From positions 1-28,541 of IMG/VR virus record IMGVR_UViG_3300021425_000129: a stretch of DNA of 28,541 bases; one strand, written 5' to 3'. Both the position numbers and the translations under genes were made by a program. Source of the stretch: a virus. This document shows positions 3,775 through 17,813 of the stretch, piece after piece (position 1 is the stretch's first letter; each line of letters begins with the position of its first letter). The notes under the pieces were generated by a model that was given only the letters and a program-made list of their open reading frames with translations, ran no database searches and had not been told where the DNA came from.

Positions 3775-4878
3775 ATGCGAATTGAAAATGAATTGAAACT
3801 GGATTACAGTGATGTCTTGTTGCGGCCTAAAAGATCGACTCTTGGCTCTCGTAAAGATGTTTCTCTCGTAAGAGAGTTTACTAAGCTCAAGTGGTCTGGT
3901 TTACCAATCATGGCCGCAAACATGGATGGTGTTGGTACAATCGAAATGGCAAGAAAACTTGCTGAGAAGAAGATGTTCACTTGTTTGAAGAAAACATATG
4001 ATACATCTACACTAGTCAAGTTCTTTTGTGATACAGACCATAAAGTTCCAGAATATAATTGTGAATATTCTGCAATGAGTATTGGAATCACTGACTATGA
4101 TTTTCGAAAGTTCTGTGATGTCTTTGCTATGTGTCCTAATCTCAAGTTTATTTGTATTGATGTAGCGAATGGATACAGTGAAAGATTTGTATCTTTTGTG
4201 AAAAAGATTCGTGAGATTTCGAGTAAATTGAAAATCATTGCGGGTAATGTTGTCACTGGTGAGATGACAGAGCAATTGATTCTCAGTGGTGTAGATATTG
4301 TCAAGGTGGGAATCGGACCTGGAAGTGCATGTACCACTCGCATTCAGACAGGAGTCGGTTATCCTCAACTGTCAGCGGTGATTGAATGTGCCGATGCTGC
4401 ACATGGGCTTGGTGGTTTAATCATTGCTGACGGCGGTTGTACGTGTCCTGGTGATGTAGCCAAAGCATTTGCGGGTGGTGCCGATTTCGTGATGCTTGGT
4501 GGCATGTTAGCTGGTCATGATGAAGGTGGTGGCAATATTATTGAAAAACATTATGTCACAAATGAGATTGAATACACCTCTGAAGATTATCCTCAATCGT
4601 ATGAATTGATTCGTGAGACAAAGAAGTTTGTTGAGTTCTACGGCATGAGCAGCAAGAAAGCCAATGACATTCACTTTGGTGGTCTCAAAGATTATCGTGC
4701 CTCTGAAGGTCGTGAGGTGCTGGTGCCCTATCGTGGTCCTGTTGAGAACACAATTCAAGAAATCTTGGGTGGCTTACGAAGTTCTTGTACATATATTGGC
4801 GCTCAAAACTTGAAAAATTTACCAAAGTGTGCTACAATGATTCGAGTATCAAATCAATATAATGAAATTTTCTCTTGA
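3775..4878 (+). CDS. guaC: GMP reductase (IMPDH/GuaC family)
   Basis: A 367-residue TIM-barrel enzyme of the IMPDH/GMPR family, which reductively deaminates GMP to IMP with NADPH. GMPR-type features are the early AANMDGVGT segment, [11 protein letters not shown] with the catalytic cysteine at residue 186, [30 protein letters not shown], and [17 protein letters not shown]. The C-terminal YRGPVENT followed by [12 protein letters not shown] is also typical. There is no CBS domain, as in GuaC. It is slightly longer than the bacterial enzyme (about 347 residues). The ribosome site AAGGAA lies 9 bases ahead of the ATG. It follows the secreted protein by 15 bases, so both may share a transcript. Returning guanine nucleotides to IMP would favour adenine supply in an AT-rich phage. 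All core catalytic motifs look intact. Confidence 0.93.
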
Positions 4879-9821: not shown

Positions 9822-10046
9822 ATGCATCAAAAAATAGATTATGACAATTATCAGATATATCCCCCTCATCTGAGACGTGAGATGTTTGAAATTGATGAGC
9901 AATATCAAATCATTGACCAATTGCTCATCGCAGGAAAGCTTCCGAAAATCGAAATACCGGATTTCCCACTTTCGGTTTCTCTTCTTGAAGAGTTGTTTTT
10001 TGGACGAAAAAGCAAAAGAATTAAAATTTTTTTAAAAAAGTCTTGA
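9822..10046 (+). CDS. Small hypothetical protein
   Basis: A 74-residue protein starting one base after the previous stop. It contains YPPHLRREMFEIDEQYQIIDQLL (in two parts helical), a proline-bounded strand, and a basic C-terminus GRKSKRIKIFLKKS. Unknown function. Its TGA stop (10044-10046) lies inside the TTGACA box of the next promoter. The message can form a 10-bp hairpin (9894-9903 with 9920-9929). Confidence 0.6.
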   Translation: MHQKIDYDNYQIYPPHLRREMFEIDEQYQIIDQLLIAGKLPKIEIPDFPLSVSLLEELFFGRKSKRIKIFLKKS

Positions 10047-10071
10047 CATTTTAGATTCTCTCTGATATACT
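10043..10071 (+). promoter_or_regulatory. Extended -10 promoter for the VWA protein gene
   Basis: TTGACA (10043-10048), 17-base spacer, TGa, TATACT (10066-10071). Start expected near 10078, about 30 bases before the ATG at 10108, leaving room for CAGGAGA (10097-10103). Confidence 0.85.
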
Positions 10072-10107
10072 ATTCTCATATCTCGTAATTCTTTACAGGA
10101 GAACCGA

Positions 10108-12696
10108 ATGAGTGAAATATACAGTGATGTTCTGGCCAAACTGTTTGCTGCCGAGAATATCAACATTAGTATTAAGAATGCCAGCACGGCTTATTTTAAT
10201 CCAGAAACAAGATCCATGGTCTTCCCTCAATGGATTCTAACTCTACCAATCGCATCCCGTGAATTGCTGATGTTACATGAGGCGAGCCACGCCCTTCACA
10301 CACCCAAGTTTGGCACCCATGAAAAAGCAAAAGAATACGAAACAGTCTTTCGTAACATTCTGAATATTCTTGAAGATAAAAGAATTGAAGATGCCATGAA
10401 AGAAAAGTTTCCTGGCGCAAAATCTACTTTCATTCGTGGCTTTTATGAGCTTGTGAATTCAAATCTTTTCGGCATTCATTTCGAAGATGATATGAGTGGA
10501 ACAAGTTTGCTCGATCGAATGAATCTATATTTCAAAGGTGATTATTATTTTGATTGTGAATTCACCGAAGAAGAGCAGTACTGGGTAGACCGAGCAGCAC
10601 AAAATAAAACCTTTGAAGAAGTTTATGATAATGCTGTTGACCTATTAGAACATCTAAAAGAAAACTACGCAAAAGAAGTTCTCGAAAAGGCCAAGGTCAA
10701 TTGGGAGGATGTTGAGTTTGTTGATAGTGATGAATATGATGATTATGAAGGTGATGGTGGAGAAACTGAACATCTGACAATGGAAGACCTTGAGAACATG
10801 CTTGATGAAGAGTCTTTCGAAAAGTTACAAGAAGCTCTCGAAGAACACAATGAACAGAAAGCAAAAGAGGTCATTAAAGAAGCCATCAATAATGGACTTC
10901 AGCCAGATTTTGAAGAAAAGAATTCTGCTCAAACAGATACAGAATGGGAAAGAAATCAAGAGAGAATGAAAAGTAGCAATGAAGATAAGTTTGCAAGCAT
11001 TCTTAACGCAAATCTCTCTCGCTATCTCAACTGGAAAGATTTTGTTGTTCCAAATTCACTTGTCACTGACCAGATTCGCAAAAGTATTTCTTTAGTGAGT
11101 TCAAATAAAATTGAAGAGTTTGAAAAATTCATGAGTGAACATCGTGTCGAAATGGCACCTGTGATTGCTCATATGGTCCGTGAATTCATGAGAAAGAAAG
11201 CCGCTGAAGATTTTCGAAGAACAAAAGAATCGAAAACAGGAAATCTTGACCTTCATAAGTTAGTTCACTACAAGTATGAATCAAATCTGTTTTTGAACAA
11301 AGCAGTGACAACAGAAGAAAAGAATCATGGCTTTGCCTTGTTGCTTGACTGGTCTGGTTCCATGAACAACATTATGACCAATGCGATTCTTCAATTGATT
11401 GTCAATGTAATCTTTTGTAAAAGCATTCAAGTTCCTTTCGTAGCATATGCTTTTTCAACAGACGCAACAGATACTTATGATGCGACAGAGCAAATAGGTA
11501 TCTGTACTCATGGTGTTGATATTGATAGTATGAGATTAAATCCTAAATTCAAATTAGTTGAATTGATTGATTCAACAAAATCAAACTATGAAGAGCAACT
11601 TCGCAATCTGTATTATGTTGCCTATTCATTTTTGAACGTTCATCAAACAAGAATGGGAATTCTTGAATTTGAAAAATATGCGGCGAGACTCGATAAAAGA
11701 AGAAAAGAAAATAAGATTAGTCGCTATGACTATGACGGTACTGATCATATAATGGTCTTGAGTGATATCTTTGAACTCGGTTCCACACCACTGAATGATG
11801 GTTTGATTCTGATGAATTATATTTTACCAGATTTGAAACAGAATATGGTTGTTGATGTAATGAATCTGATTGTAATCACAGATGGTGATAGTGATGGTAT
11901 GCAGATGATGGCAACTCGAAAAGAAACAGAAACACTCAAAGCAACCGCTCATTTTTCTGAAGTTCTGAACAGTTGGGGAAAACCTGAATTGAGAAGACAA
12001 AAAGGTGATTGGGATGATGTTCTTGACGCCTTTTATCACAATGGCACACAAAGCCGTTATAGTTATCGTGGCGATGAATCAAAATTTTATTGCCGTCTGC
12101 GACAATCAAATCGTGTAGTTTGTATCAATGATTTGATGACAAGAAAATTCAACAGTTATGTGAATAATAGCAATCGTGAATTTACTCGACGATTAGCTGC
12201 ACTTGTCAAAGAAGAAACTGGTGCGAATGTAATTTGTATTGAACTTTTGACCTATAAGTCAACTGCTCTTCGACGATATCTGTCAGCCTATTACAACGTC
12301 ACTGAACTGGATGAAACAGAACAAATAATCAATGATTATCGTAAGAATGGCTTTGCCGTGATCAATCGTAATGGTTATGATCAAATCTTTTGTGTGAATA
12401 CAAATGTGATTTGTAATTCTCGCTATAATAGTTATTACTATGGCTGGGATGACGATGATAGTGAGCAGAAACAAGAAAATGCCTTTGATAATATGAAAGA
12501 AAATTCGAAAGGTACTTTCACCACAAGACAATTGGCTGTTGCTCTTGAAAAGAACGTGTCACAAAAGAATCGCAGAAAATTCTTGGCGACTCGAGTTGTG
12601 GATGTGATTTCAGAAAAGCAAGTCAAAGAAGAGAAAAAACAAAAAATAGTTCTTGACATTCCTGAAAATCTCTGCTATGATCAAGAAACAGTTTGA
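10108..12696 (+). CDS. Large VWA-domain protein with HExxH motif (CobT/metallopeptidase-like)
   Basis: An 862-residue protein. Near the N-terminus is a zincin-type HEASH motif (H57-H61) followed about 30 residues later by NILEDKRIED, a helix with acidic residues placed as in predicted metallopeptidases associated with VWA domains. Residues about 200-290 are extremely acidic, as in CobT-like chelatase subunits. A VWA domain follows with a MIDAS signature DWSGSM (D414, S416, S418) and a later ITDGDSDG (D592). The gene after it encodes a CobS/MoxR AAA+ ATPase, the usual partner of such VWA proteins, so the two probably form an ATP-driven remodelling or metal-insertion complex. Whether it is a cobaltochelatase subunit, a peptidase or something else cannot be decided. 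Its own promoter sits at 10043, and the promoter of the ATPase gene lies within its 3' end. Confidence 0.85.
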   Translation: MSEIYSDVLAKLFAAENINISIKNASTAYFNPETRSMVFPQWILTLPIASRELLMLHEASHALHTPKFGTHEKAKEYETVFRNILNILEDKRIEDAMKEKFPGAKSTFIRGFYELVNSNLFGIHFEDDMSGTSLLDRMNLYFKGDYYFDCEFTEEEQYWVDRAAQNKTFEEVYDNAVDLLEHLKENYAKEVLEKAKVNWEDVEFVDSDEYDDYEGDGGETEHLTMEDLENMLDEESFEKLQEALEEHNEQKAKEVIKEAINNGLQPDFEEKNSAQTDTEWERNQERMKSSNEDKFASILNANLSRYLNWKDFVVPNSLVTDQIRKSISLVSSNKIEEFEKFMSEHRVEMAPVIAHMVREFMRKKAAEDFRRTKESKTGNLDLHKLVHYKYESNLFLNKAVTTEEKNHGFALLLDWSGSMNNIMTNAILQLIVNVIFCKSIQVPFVAYAFSTDATDTYDATEQIGICTHGVDIDSMRLNPKFKLVELIDSTKSNYEEQLRNLYYVAYSFLNVHQTRMGILEFEKYAARLDKRRKENKISRYDYDGTDHIMVLSDIFELGSTPLNDGLILMNYILPDLKQNMVVDVMNLIVITDGDSDGMQMMATRKETETLKATAHFSEVLNSWGKPELRRQKGDWDDVLDAFYHNGTQSRYSYRGDESKFYCRLRQSNRVVCINDLMTRKFNSYVNNSNREFTRRLAALVKEETGANVICIELLTYKSTALRRYLSAYYNVTELDETEQIINDYRKNGFAVINRNGYDQIFCVNTNVICNSRYNSYYYGWDDDDSEQKQENAFDNMKENSKGTFTTRQLAVALEKNVSQKNRRKFLATRVVDVISEKQVKEEKKQKIVLDIPENLCYDQETV
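12653..12681 (+). promoter_or_regulatory. Extended -10 promoter for the CobS-like ATPase gene
   Basis: TTGACA (12653-12658), 17-base spacer, TGc, TATGAT (12676-12681), within the last 15 codons of the VWA gene. Start expected near 12688, some 46 bases ahead of the ATG at 12734; AAGGAGA lies at 12720-12726. Confidence 0.85.
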
Positions 12697-12733
12697 GAAC
12701 TGATTTTTTTACCAACTCCCAAGGAGAATAATT

Positions 12734-14182
12734 ATGAGTATTGAAGTTGCGAAAGTTCGTGAATATCTCGATAAAGATGTAGCCACTCGTAAAGAAATTG
12801 TTCAAGCTGCGGCTGAACTCGGATTGAAACACAATAAAATCCTTCGTGCCGTCAAGAAAATTGATTATGGTGTCTACAATCTTGAGTTGGCTGAAAAGAA
12901 TGAAACTCCTGAACCAGTTGCTCAACCCACTAAAGTTGTGCCGTTTCGGCAAGACCGCAAGATTCTTTCAAAAGAAGATATTCAAAAAGGATACATTCCT
13001 GAGAAAGATCCTTGTTTCGTTCCCTTCGGTGATTACAGTGTGATTGATGCTGTGATTGCTTCAAAGAAATTCTGCCCTACTGTCATCACTGGTGATTCTG
13101 GTAATGGCAAGACAAAGATGGTAGAACAAGCCTGCGCCAAGAACAAACGGCACTTCTATCGTATGAATGTGACCATTGAGACAGATGAGATGGACATTCT
13201 CGGTCACTACAATCTTGTGAATGGTGAGACCGTATGGGAAGATTCACCACTTGTTGAAGCCGCTAAGGTTGGTGGTGTTGTACTACTTGATGAAATCTTT
13301 GCGGGGAATCCTGCGAGAATGTTGTGTCTTCAGGGTATTCTTGAGGGCAAGCCATTCCTCATCAAGAAGACGGGTGAGCGTATCGTTCCTGCCAAAGGAT
13401 TCAACATCATTGCGACAGATAACACAAAAGGTAATGGTTCTGAATCTGGTCGTTACATCGGCACAAACATTCAGAATACCGCTTTCCTTGAGCGATTTGT
13501 AATGTGTATTGAGCATGATTATCCAACAAAGGCGAAAGAAATCAAAATGTTGGATAAGTATCTTGAAGTTCACAACATTGATGTTGAAGATGCTAAGTTT
13601 ACAGAGAAACTTTGTCAGTGGGCAGAAGTCACTCGAAAGTCCTACAAAGATGAGGCGATTGATGAAATGATCACCACTCGACGTTTGTTTCACATTCTGG
13701 ATATCTATTCAATTCTGGGTGACAAAGAAAAGGCTCTTCAATATGCGATTGCTCGATTTGATGAAGAAGTTCGTGATTCATTTGTTTCACTCTACAAAAA
13801 ACTTGATGAGACAATTCAAGATCCGAATCATCAGCCTGTCGACCCTGAGAATATGGTGACTTTCGATACAGTGCTTGAACAAGTTGCCAATCAGTTCACC
13901 TCATCTACCACCTCAGATGAACGTGATGAAATCAAAAAAGAATTGATTCAAATATCAGCAGATGAGATACAAAATTGGAAACAAGCATATGATTCGAATT
14001 CGCAATCAGATTTAGAAGAGTTAAGTGATATGCGAAACTGGTTGAATTCAAAGTATAGTGACCTTGTTCGTGCAAGAGATTCGCATGAAGATGAACAACC
14101 GGTTGAGCTAGATAAACCAATCACTCATAATGAAGAAACCGCTATTGACCGATTGATGAAAGATCTTTCGGGAACTGAATAA
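12734..14182 (+). CDS. cobS: MoxR/CobS-type AAA+ ATPase
   Basis: A 482-residue AAA+ ATPase. Residues 1-55 form a small helical, winged-helix-like segment. The ATPase core has Walker A GDSGNGKT (G120-T127), a conserved segment NVTIETDEMDILGHYNLV, Walker B VVLLDE (D186, E187), sensor 1 IIATDN, and FLERF near residue 255 as a likely arginine finger. The region LEGKPFLIKKTGERIVPAKGFNIIAT is typical of CobS and MoxR. CobS genes are known accessory genes of marine T4-like phages, but the name reflects similarity rather than proven cobalamin synthesis. The adjacent VWA gene is the expected partner. The C-terminal 100 residues are helical and acidic, longer than bacterial CobS (about 330 residues). 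Confidence 0.88.
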   Translation: MSIEVAKVREYLDKDVATRKEIVQAAAELGLKHNKILRAVKKIDYGVYNLELAEKNETPEPVAQPTKVVPFRQDRKILSKEDIQKGYIPEKDPCFVPFGDYSVIDAVIASKKFCPTVITGDSGNGKTKMVEQACAKNKRHFYRMNVTIETDEMDILGHYNLVNGETVWEDSPLVEAAKVGGVVLLDEIFAGNPARMLCLQGILEGKPFLIKKTGERIVPAKGFNIIATDNTKGNGSESGRYIGTNIQNTAFLERFVMCIEHDYPTKAKEIKMLDKYLEVHNIDVEDAKFTEKLCQWAEVTRKSYKDEAIDEMITTRRLFHILDIYSILGDKEKALQYAIARFDEEVRDSFVSLYKKLDETIQDPNHQPVDPENMVTFDTVLEQVANQFTSSTTSDERDEIKKELIQISADEIQNWKQAYDSNSQSDLEELSDMRNWLNSKYSDLVRARDSHEDEQPVELDKPITHNEETAIDRLMKDLSGTE

Positions 14183-14184
14183 TC

Positions 14185-14325
14185 ATGAAACTACCCAAAG
14201 AAGAATGGATAGCAGATCCAAAAGATATAAAATTTGATAAAATTTGGAATCTACTTCTTGCGATTGCATTTTTGATACCAATCACTTTGGGTAGTTTTTT
14301 ATTTTGGATATGGATTGAAATCTAA
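14185..14325 (+). CDS. Small single-pass membrane protein (46 aa)
   Basis: A short reading frame directly after the ATPase gene encodes 46 residues: a charged N-terminal 20 residues (MKLPKEEWIADPKDIKF) followed by a long hydrophobic segment (about residues 21-44: WNLLLAIAFLIPITLG and FLFWIWI). It would be a single membrane span with the N-terminus probably in the cytoplasm. No good ribosome site is visible, so translation would depend on coupling to the ATPase stop two bases upstream. It is the last gene before the hairpin at 14333-14371. Confidence 0.6.
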   Translation: MKLPKEEWIADPKDIKFDKIWNLLLAIAFLIPITLGSFLFWIWIEI

Positions 14326-14391: not shown

Positions 14392-15324
14392 ATGTCAGAA
14401 CAACCCGTACAACCTACCGATGGTGATCTAAAAACTCAACTTGAACCTAAAGATTTTGAAGGCAAATCATTGATGATTATGATGCCTTGTTATGGTGGTC
14501 AAATGATTGCCGAAACAGCATCTCGCCTGATTGACCTCAACACTCTTTGTTCCTATTTCGGAATCAAGCTACAATGTAAGTTCATCATGAACGAAAGTTT
14601 GATTCAACGAGCCAGAAACTATCTTGCACATTATTTCGAAATCAGCGAATTCACACATGGCATGTTTATTGATGCTGACGTTGTGTTTGATCCTCGTGAT
14701 GTTCTTCACCTTCTATATCTTTCTGATGATGAGCATTCAATCATTGGTGGTCTTTATCCTAAAAAACATATTCTCTGGCCAAGAGTTGACAAAGCTGCCA
14801 AGATGGATGGCTTCTTAGATTCACCTGCTAAACTAGCAGATTTTGGTGGAGATTTTGTTTTCAATCCAGCAAGCCGTGGTGAGATTGAAATTTTTAAACC
14901 AGTTGAAGTTCTTGAGATTGGAACAGGTTTCATGATGTTGAACAAAACCGCTTTGAACGCCTACAAAGAAGCTTATCCAAATTATGAATATAAGCCAGAT
15001 CATAATCATTCAAAAGATTTCAACGGCTCAAAAAATATCACCGCATATTTTCATGTTGATTTTGACCGACCGGAAACAACTGGTGGATCAACTAATCGTT
15101 TGCTATCTGAAGATTATTTCTTCTGTCAAATGTCTCGCAAAGCAGGCACAAAAATCTGGGCTTGTCCTTGGATGCAATTGAGTCATGTAGGTACCTATGT
15201 CTATCGTGGTTCTGTTCAGGCACTTGCTGCTATGGAGCAATTTAGTCAACAAGGTCCCGCAATTGCTTCGACACAATCTGACGCACCTGACATTGATTTA
15301 ACAGGATTGAAAGCAGCCTCTTGA
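14392..15324 (+). CDS. Glycosyltransferase, GT-A fold
   Basis: A 310-residue protein with the hallmarks of a nucleotide-sugar dependent glycosyltransferase: an opening strand SLMIMMPCYGG, RARN (73-76), a DxD-type metal motif in FIDADVVFD (D94-D96), GTGFMMLNK, and a late acidic SEDYFFC (about 237-243), followed by a W/H-rich segment (KIWACPWMQLSHVGTY). There is no signal peptide or membrane segment, so it acts in the cytoplasm, perhaps on phage DNA, proteins or a lipid-linked sugar; the target is unknown. GGAG at 14382-14385 serves the ATG at 14392. The C-terminal 35 residues are Ala/Gln-rich and probably disordered. The TGA stop overlaps the next promoter's TTGACA. Confidence 0.85.
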   Translation: MSEQPVQPTDGDLKTQLEPKDFEGKSLMIMMPCYGGQMIAETASRLIDLNTLCSYFGIKLQCKFIMNESLIQRARNYLAHYFEISEFTHGMFIDADVVFDPRDVLHLLYLSDDEHSIIGGLYPKKHILWPRVDKAAKMDGFLDSPAKLADFGGDFVFNPASRGEIEIFKPVEVLEIGTGFMMLNKTALNAYKEAYPNYEYKPDHNHSKDFNGSKNITAYFHVDFDRPETTGGSTNRLLSEDYFFCQMSRKAGTKIWACPWMQLSHVGTYVYRGSVQALAAMEQFSQQGPAIASTQSDAPDIDLTGLKAAS

Positions 15325-17736: not shown

Positions 17737-17813
17737 GGTCCCATAGTTTCAACTGGTCAAAATATCGGACTGTCACTCCGAAGTCACGGGTTCAAATCCC
17801 GTTGGGACCGCCA
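17737..17813 (+). tRNA. tRNA-Asp (anticodon GTC), CCA encoded
   Basis: A complete 77-base cloverleaf. The acceptor stem pairs GGTCCCA (17737-17743) with TGGGACC (17803-17809), then discriminator G and an encoded CCA (17811-17813). The anticodon stem TCGGA/TCCGA encloses loop CTGTCAC with anticodon GTC at 17772-17774. The T arm is ACGGG-TTCAAAT-CCCGT. The D stem is weak (GTTT with AAAT, including a G-U pair). It precedes the clamp loader genes by 34 bases. Confidence 0.96.

Follow-up and report, generated by a model that had tools for sequence, protein, structure and literature searches.

A MoxR-type ATPase and its VWA partner with a predicted HExxH metallopeptidase domain in a T4-like phage: a possible remodelling machine of DNA replication or recombination

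The cobS genes of marine phages are widely counted as auxiliary metabolic (vitamin B12) genes, including in metagenome surveys. Liu et al. 2021 (PMC8651126) described two-gene 'cobST' clusters in tailed viruses, both in T4-like cyanophages and in archaeal ones; they considered the cyanophage cobT to have been 'mistakenly annotated as a peptidase' and suggested that host CobN is hijacked. In the NorQD system, the VWA domain plugs the AAA+ ring, and through it ATP-driven rotation reaches the target, which is gripped by the MIDAS together with the N-terminal domain (PMC13036017). A MoxR/VWA block is reported to be common to the mobile elements pCAR1, R478, Rts1, SXT and R391 (PMC2642839).

The window analysed here, a 28.5-kb viral fragment, derives from a T4-like phage and encodes a late sigma factor, gp47, gp46, gp45, gp44, the clamp-loader small subunit and RegA; no relatives at the DNA level were found among phages. 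An IMP dehydrogenase/GMP reductase-like gene (3775-4878; PF00478, E 1.5e-68) is localised in this T4-like core between the gp47 and gp46 genes, and a gene of like size occupies the same slot in the relatives L004 and L005. A tRNA-Asp (gtc) gene is found at 17737-17813. A preliminary description had noted two adjacent genes, with HEASH, LEDKRIED, an acidic middle and DWSGSM in the product of the first, all of which were confirmed in place; the two ORFs code for proteins of 862 and 482 aa. It had also put the pair forward as a candidate for an undescribed system, which does not hold, as the two genes belong to phrog_459 and phrog_249, are adjacent in T4-like cyanophages and have been published as 'cobST' (PMC8651126). 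The features of the locus are as follows:

10043..10071, plus strand: sigma-70-type promoter TTGACA-17-TATACT with extended -10 TG, 5' of the VWA gene (11/12 match)
10108..12696, plus strand: VWA-domain protein with N-terminal HExxH domain, 862 aa (phrog_459 'peptidase', E 8.8e-113; CobT in Liu et al. 2021)
10276..10290, plus strand: HEASH (HExxH), residues 57-61 (H57, E58 and H61 invariant in 60 relatives)
10369..10392, plus strand: LEDKRIED glutamate helix, residues 88-95 (E89, D90 and R92 invariant in 60 relatives)
10693..10983, plus strand: acidic linker, residues 196-292 (33/97 residues D/E)
11347..11895, plus strand: MIDAS of the VWA domain, DWSGSM (414-419), T560 and D592 (invariant in 60 relatives)
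12653..12681, plus strand: sigma-70-type promoter TTGACA-17-TATGAT with extended -10 TG, within the 3' end of the VWA gene (11/12 match)
12734..14182, plus strand: MoxR-type AAA+ ATPase, 482 aa (AAA_5, E 1.4e-19; phrog_249, E 2.7e-95, annotated CobS)
13091..13114, plus strand: Walker A GDSGNGKT, residues 120-127 (glycines and lysine invariant in the ATPase alignment A2)
13277..13297, plus strand: Walker B VVLLDEI, residues 182-188 (D186 and E187 invariant in A2)
14185..14325, plus strand: 46-aa ORF with one hydrophobic stretch (judged outside the system)

Each gene of the pair had been placed under a strong promoter of its own. Both promoters are real and hold their position in L001-L005, including relatives whose proteins are about 50% identical, but the pair has no monopoly on them. 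On the plus strand of the window (866-22688), eight extended -10 sigma-70 promoters with at least 11/12 matches are found against 0.75 expected by chance, and there are none on the minus strand. Many genes of this phage are thus driven in this manner, and the promoters were rejected as a mark of special regulation of the pair. The 46-aa membrane protein, thought to end the unit, was likewise rejected as a component, as its ORF is present only in L001 (98% identical) and is missing even from L002 (95%), as well as from L003-L005. The next gene after the pair (14392-15324) is kept in relatives and belongs to phrog_1574, to which no function is assigned; its sequence (GMFIDADV) suggests a glycosyltransferase-like product.

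The phrog_459 profile match spans most of the VWA protein. Its MIDAS is complete (DxSxS-T-D; D414, S416, S418, T560 and D592), the DWSGSM motif being encoded at 11347-11364, and N86 joins the residues listed above as invariant in 60 diverse relatives. Since this set was partly baited by motif (HExxH and EDxRI in the A1 scan), conservation was measured again on loci reached through the ATPase alone, where HExxH is present in 58/58 relatives with a readable N-terminus, 52 of them with the form HEVGH. The intact HExxH and glutamate helix of the preliminary description are thus strongly conserved. An HExxH followed by a glutamate on the next helix is also the arrangement of minigluzincin-like zincins, and E89 is the candidate third metal ligand beside the two histidines. 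In the model of the whole protein, the C-terminal half matches the MIDAS domain of Rea1/MDN1 (Z 16-17) and the VWA domain of NorD (Z 15.9). The related VWA protein of a Shinella plasmid (L013:2856-5570) carries an IPT/TIG-like insert between the HExxH domain and the acidic linker.

Modelled alone with 57 relatives, the N-terminal domain was predicted with confidence (pLDDT 89, pTM 0.84); besides three strands, the model contains one helix with the HExxH (48-64) and another with the glutamate (79-100). The top Foldseek matches were ArdC, selecase, jannalysin and abylysin, with weak E-values (best 0.014). With VIA, all rows with a Z of at least 5 were HExxH metallopeptidases, namely abylysin (7.0), selecase (6.8), jannalysin (6.6), BlaR1 (6.4), ZMPSTE24 (6.3), ArdC (5.6), SPRTN (5.5), PprI (5.2) and IrrE (5.0), so that the zincin matches fall at Z 5-7, below the level of 8 that VIA treats as safe. 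A search of solved structures by sequence with the alignments A1 and A5 gave no useful match; no solved CobT structure was among the listed fold matches of the domain, which excludes nothing. The N-terminal domain is predicted to be a small, minigluzincin-like HExxH metallopeptidase, and an earlier description of this phage domain may exist in the subscription literature.

The phrog_249 profile match similarly spans most of the ATPase, and its AAA_5 domain and Walker A and B motifs, together with the complete MIDAS of its neighbour, uphold the proposed pairing of a MoxR ATPase and a VWA protein resembling CobT. When solved structures were searched by sequence, NorQ and CobS structures were matched. 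Against the CobS profile TIGR01650 the ATPase scores 51 bits, far below the equivalog cut-off of 558.55.

Relatives of the VWA protein and of the ATPase were found by tblastn in 463 and 784 phage records, respectively, each list including 365 Synechococcus, 61 Cyanophage and 24 Prochlorococcus records. To avoid bias, the partner was surveyed in 78 loci reached through the ATPase (CobS) alone, five of which were excluded because the contig ends less than 600 bases upstream of the ATPase. The VWA gene lies upstream on the same strand in all 73 assessable loci. Outside these loci, in different phage families, the Kayvirus (L014) and Listeria (L017) phages encode a CobS-like phrog_249 ATPase with no convincing VWA partner genome-wide; a weak match of the VWA profile in the Listeria phage (16.7 bits, in the acidic-linker region) was taken as low-complexity noise. 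The neighbours of the ATPase gene in these phages belong to phrog_1909/phrog_7005, with no assigned function. In relatives on Acinetobacter and Stenotrophomonas phage-plasmids (L012:3493-5421 and L015:3640-5625), both histidines of the HExxH are lost while the pair and the Glu/Arg helix are kept, so that any catalysis is dispensable at least there.

The relatives are encoded in several distinct genomic settings. In HTVC008M and syn9, gp46 is followed by small genes and then by VWA, ATPase, gp45 and gp44, and among the T4-like loci with enough flank gp46 is found upstream in 26/32 and gp45 downstream in 45/49. The order VWA, ATPase, dnaE occurs in all phage-plasmid loci examined. Genes for RecT and/or YqaJ exonuclease, MoxR, DUF3150 and VWA follow one another in this order in five chromosomal loci, in a conjugative plasmid and in an IncA plasmid, in the last with the MoxR gene first; an IncHI2 plasmid combines MoxR, DUF3150 and VWA with a toprim gene. 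The RecT-YqaJ-MoxR-DUF3150-HExxH/VWA block (L212, L216, L218, L221 and L222) is found in purple sulfur bacteria, other gammaproteobacteria and the IncA plasmid, with DUF3150 as a third, uncharacterised component. The gp46/gp45, dnaE and RecT/YqaJ neighbourhoods indicate that unrelated elements carry the pair in the company of replication or recombination genes, although, gene order having been inherited once within the T4-like phages, only some three to four independent contexts back this link.

Whether the HExxH region is an ordinary part of CobT had been raised as a possible objection, and it proves to be so by descent but not in its motif. No Pfam CobT model (PF06213 or PF11775) matches the VWA protein, the only match being VWA_CoxE (E 0.096). 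By hhalign, the T4-like phage family aligns directly with cellular CobT (93%, E 3e-7) and with the CobT-like proteins of phage-plasmids and conjugative elements (99.7%, E 7e-27), and the latter align with cellular CobT (100%, E 7e-53). By these profile alignments, the VWA protein and cellular CobT have homologous N-terminal domains. HExxH is nevertheless absent from all 41 alphaproteobacterial CobTs, in which 'RG-ADA-ALR-HHD' takes its place and the Glu/Arg helix is retained; an apparent HExxH in one cellular CobT (L240) was dismissed as a wrong reading frame. Four groups are resolved in the tree, comprising the T4-like, conjugative/island, phage-plasmid and cellular CobT proteins, the last adjoining the phage-plasmid group (92/87) inside a set otherwise mostly with HExxH. 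The simplest reading of this tree, which is midpoint-rooted with the root not established, is an ancient HExxH that cellular CobT and the Acinetobacter/Stenotrophomonas phage-plasmids have since lost.

The explanation we favour, with about even confidence, is that the pair is a MoxR-VWA remodeller with a predicted metallopeptidase domain that serves DNA replication or recombination. It builds on the kept adjacency of the two genes, the ATPase and MIDAS motifs, the invariant HExxH and glutamate, the predicted fold and the recombination/replication neighbourhoods. The ATPase would form a MoxR-type AAA+ ring, and the VWA domain of the large protein, by analogy with NorQ-NorD and Rea1, would dock on this ring in a complex of the two proteins, with the metal-ion site of the MIDAS gripping the target. 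ATP-driven motion would then remodel, and probably cleave or clear, a substrate protein engaged in phage DNA replication or recombination. The invariance of the catalytic E58 suggests that the pair, its HExxH site presumably binding a metal, can also cut. The location of the relatives beside DNA replication and recombination genes, together with the protease-like metal site, indicates that the vitamin B12 label of the pair is probably wrong.

The published view, in which the pair is CobST, borrows the CobN of the host and raises cobalamin for a B12-dependent ribonucleotide reductase, was stated by Liu et al. 2021 (PMC8651126), PMC9146016 quotes a presumed connection with ribonucleotide reductase, and the homology of the VWA protein to cellular CobT speaks for it. 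We nonetheless regard it as very unlikely, given the low CobS score of the ATPase, the lack of a CobT match for the VWA protein and the loss of HExxH from the cellular CobTs. As the preliminary description had claimed, no cobalamin gene was found in the window, and a CobN search of seven records, namely the window, a 146-kb relative (G082, locus L004), HTVC008M, syn9, S-SCSM1, a Rhizobium phage and an E. coli phage-plasmid, found none. The pair is present in E. coli phage-plasmids (L100), yet the E. coli control genome has no CobN match. A first pass with a B12-reductase model was ambiguous, with matches below the cut-off; class-level models, used thereafter, assigned the ribonucleotide reductases of the four tested relatives to class I, three over the cut-off and that of the Rhizobium phage just under it. 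Class I ribonucleotide reductases are B12-independent. The control genome of Caulobacter vibrioides has a CobT match and no CobN match, suggesting that cellular CobST may also act without CobN.

A NorQD-like metallochaperone, whose HExxH domain would hold or place a metal but not cut, for insertion by the machine into an enzyme of the phage or host, is unlikely. In its favour, NorQD, which among structural analogues of the VWA part is the best characterised, inserts iron (PMC13036017), cellular CobST inserts cobalt and an HExxH can bind metal without proteolysis. The catalytic E58, invariant in 60/60 relatives, would however not be needed for plain metal carriage, and no metalloenzyme gene is a constant neighbour across the lineages. 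The predominance of the pair in phages, phage-plasmids and conjugative elements, as well as the plasmid antirestriction protein ArdC among the structural matches, could point to a protease machine of counter-defence or host takeover, directed at a host defence protein. Such a role appears improbable, as a general role on DNA accounts better than a host-specific defence target for the invariance over hundreds of phages of unrelated hosts and for the setting in the replication/recombination core, and a PADLOC search for a known defence system gave no match. A more far-reaching form of the DNA role, to which we attach an equally low probability, is that the pair is a metalloprotease which uses ATP to remove proteins from DNA while phages and plasmids replicate and recombine. 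On mobile elements it would thus correspond to SPRTN/Wss1, which work with Cdc48 on DNA-protein crosslinks, and cellular CobST would be a derived form, its protease site lost and its machinery recruited to metal insertion.

If the favoured reading, that of a DNA-metabolism remodeller with a protease-like domain, is correct, the counting of phage 'cobS' as a B12 gene is wrong, and a testable role is provided for a pair that over 400 sequenced T4-like phages encode and that has relatives on clinical plasmids. The pair further offers a possible origin for the cobaltochelatase CobST.

Among the known systems, the minigluzincins (abylysin, jannalysin and selecase), SPRTN, PprI/IrrE and ArdC are matched by the predicted fold and the HExxH helix of the N-terminal domain at Z values of only 5-7, but have no VWA domain or MoxR partner. 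NorQ-NorD resembles the pair in its MoxR AAA+ ring and in a VWA/MIDAS partner with an N-terminal domain and linker (VWA Z 15.9), whereas NorD serves a respiratory enzyme, in iron insertion into nitric oxide reductase, and no HExxH domain is described for it in the NorQD literature examined. The MoxR-DUF3150-VWA block of conjugative elements (IncA, IncHI2) likewise joins MoxR and HExxH-VWA proteins beside DNA-processing genes, but has an extra DUF3150 gene, another order, RecT/YqaJ in place of gp46/47 and low sequence identity. Cellular CobS-CobT comprises a MoxR-type ATPase and an acidic-linker VWA protein with a homologous N-terminal domain, including the Glu/Arg helix; unlike the phage protein, cellular CobT lacks HExxH (0/41) and works with CobN, and the window ATPase falls far below the CobS cut-off. 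The 'cobST' of Liu et al. 2021, phrog_459 ('peptidase') and phrog_249 ('porphyrin biosynthesis'), is the same system, with the same families, order and synteny (gp46 - VWA - ATPase - gp45/44); the HExxH evidence, however, supports neither its cobaltochelatase function nor the dismissal of 'peptidase' as a mistake, and the evidence favours the HExxH-peptidase-like reading of the preliminary description over that of Liu et al. 2021 (PMC8651126).
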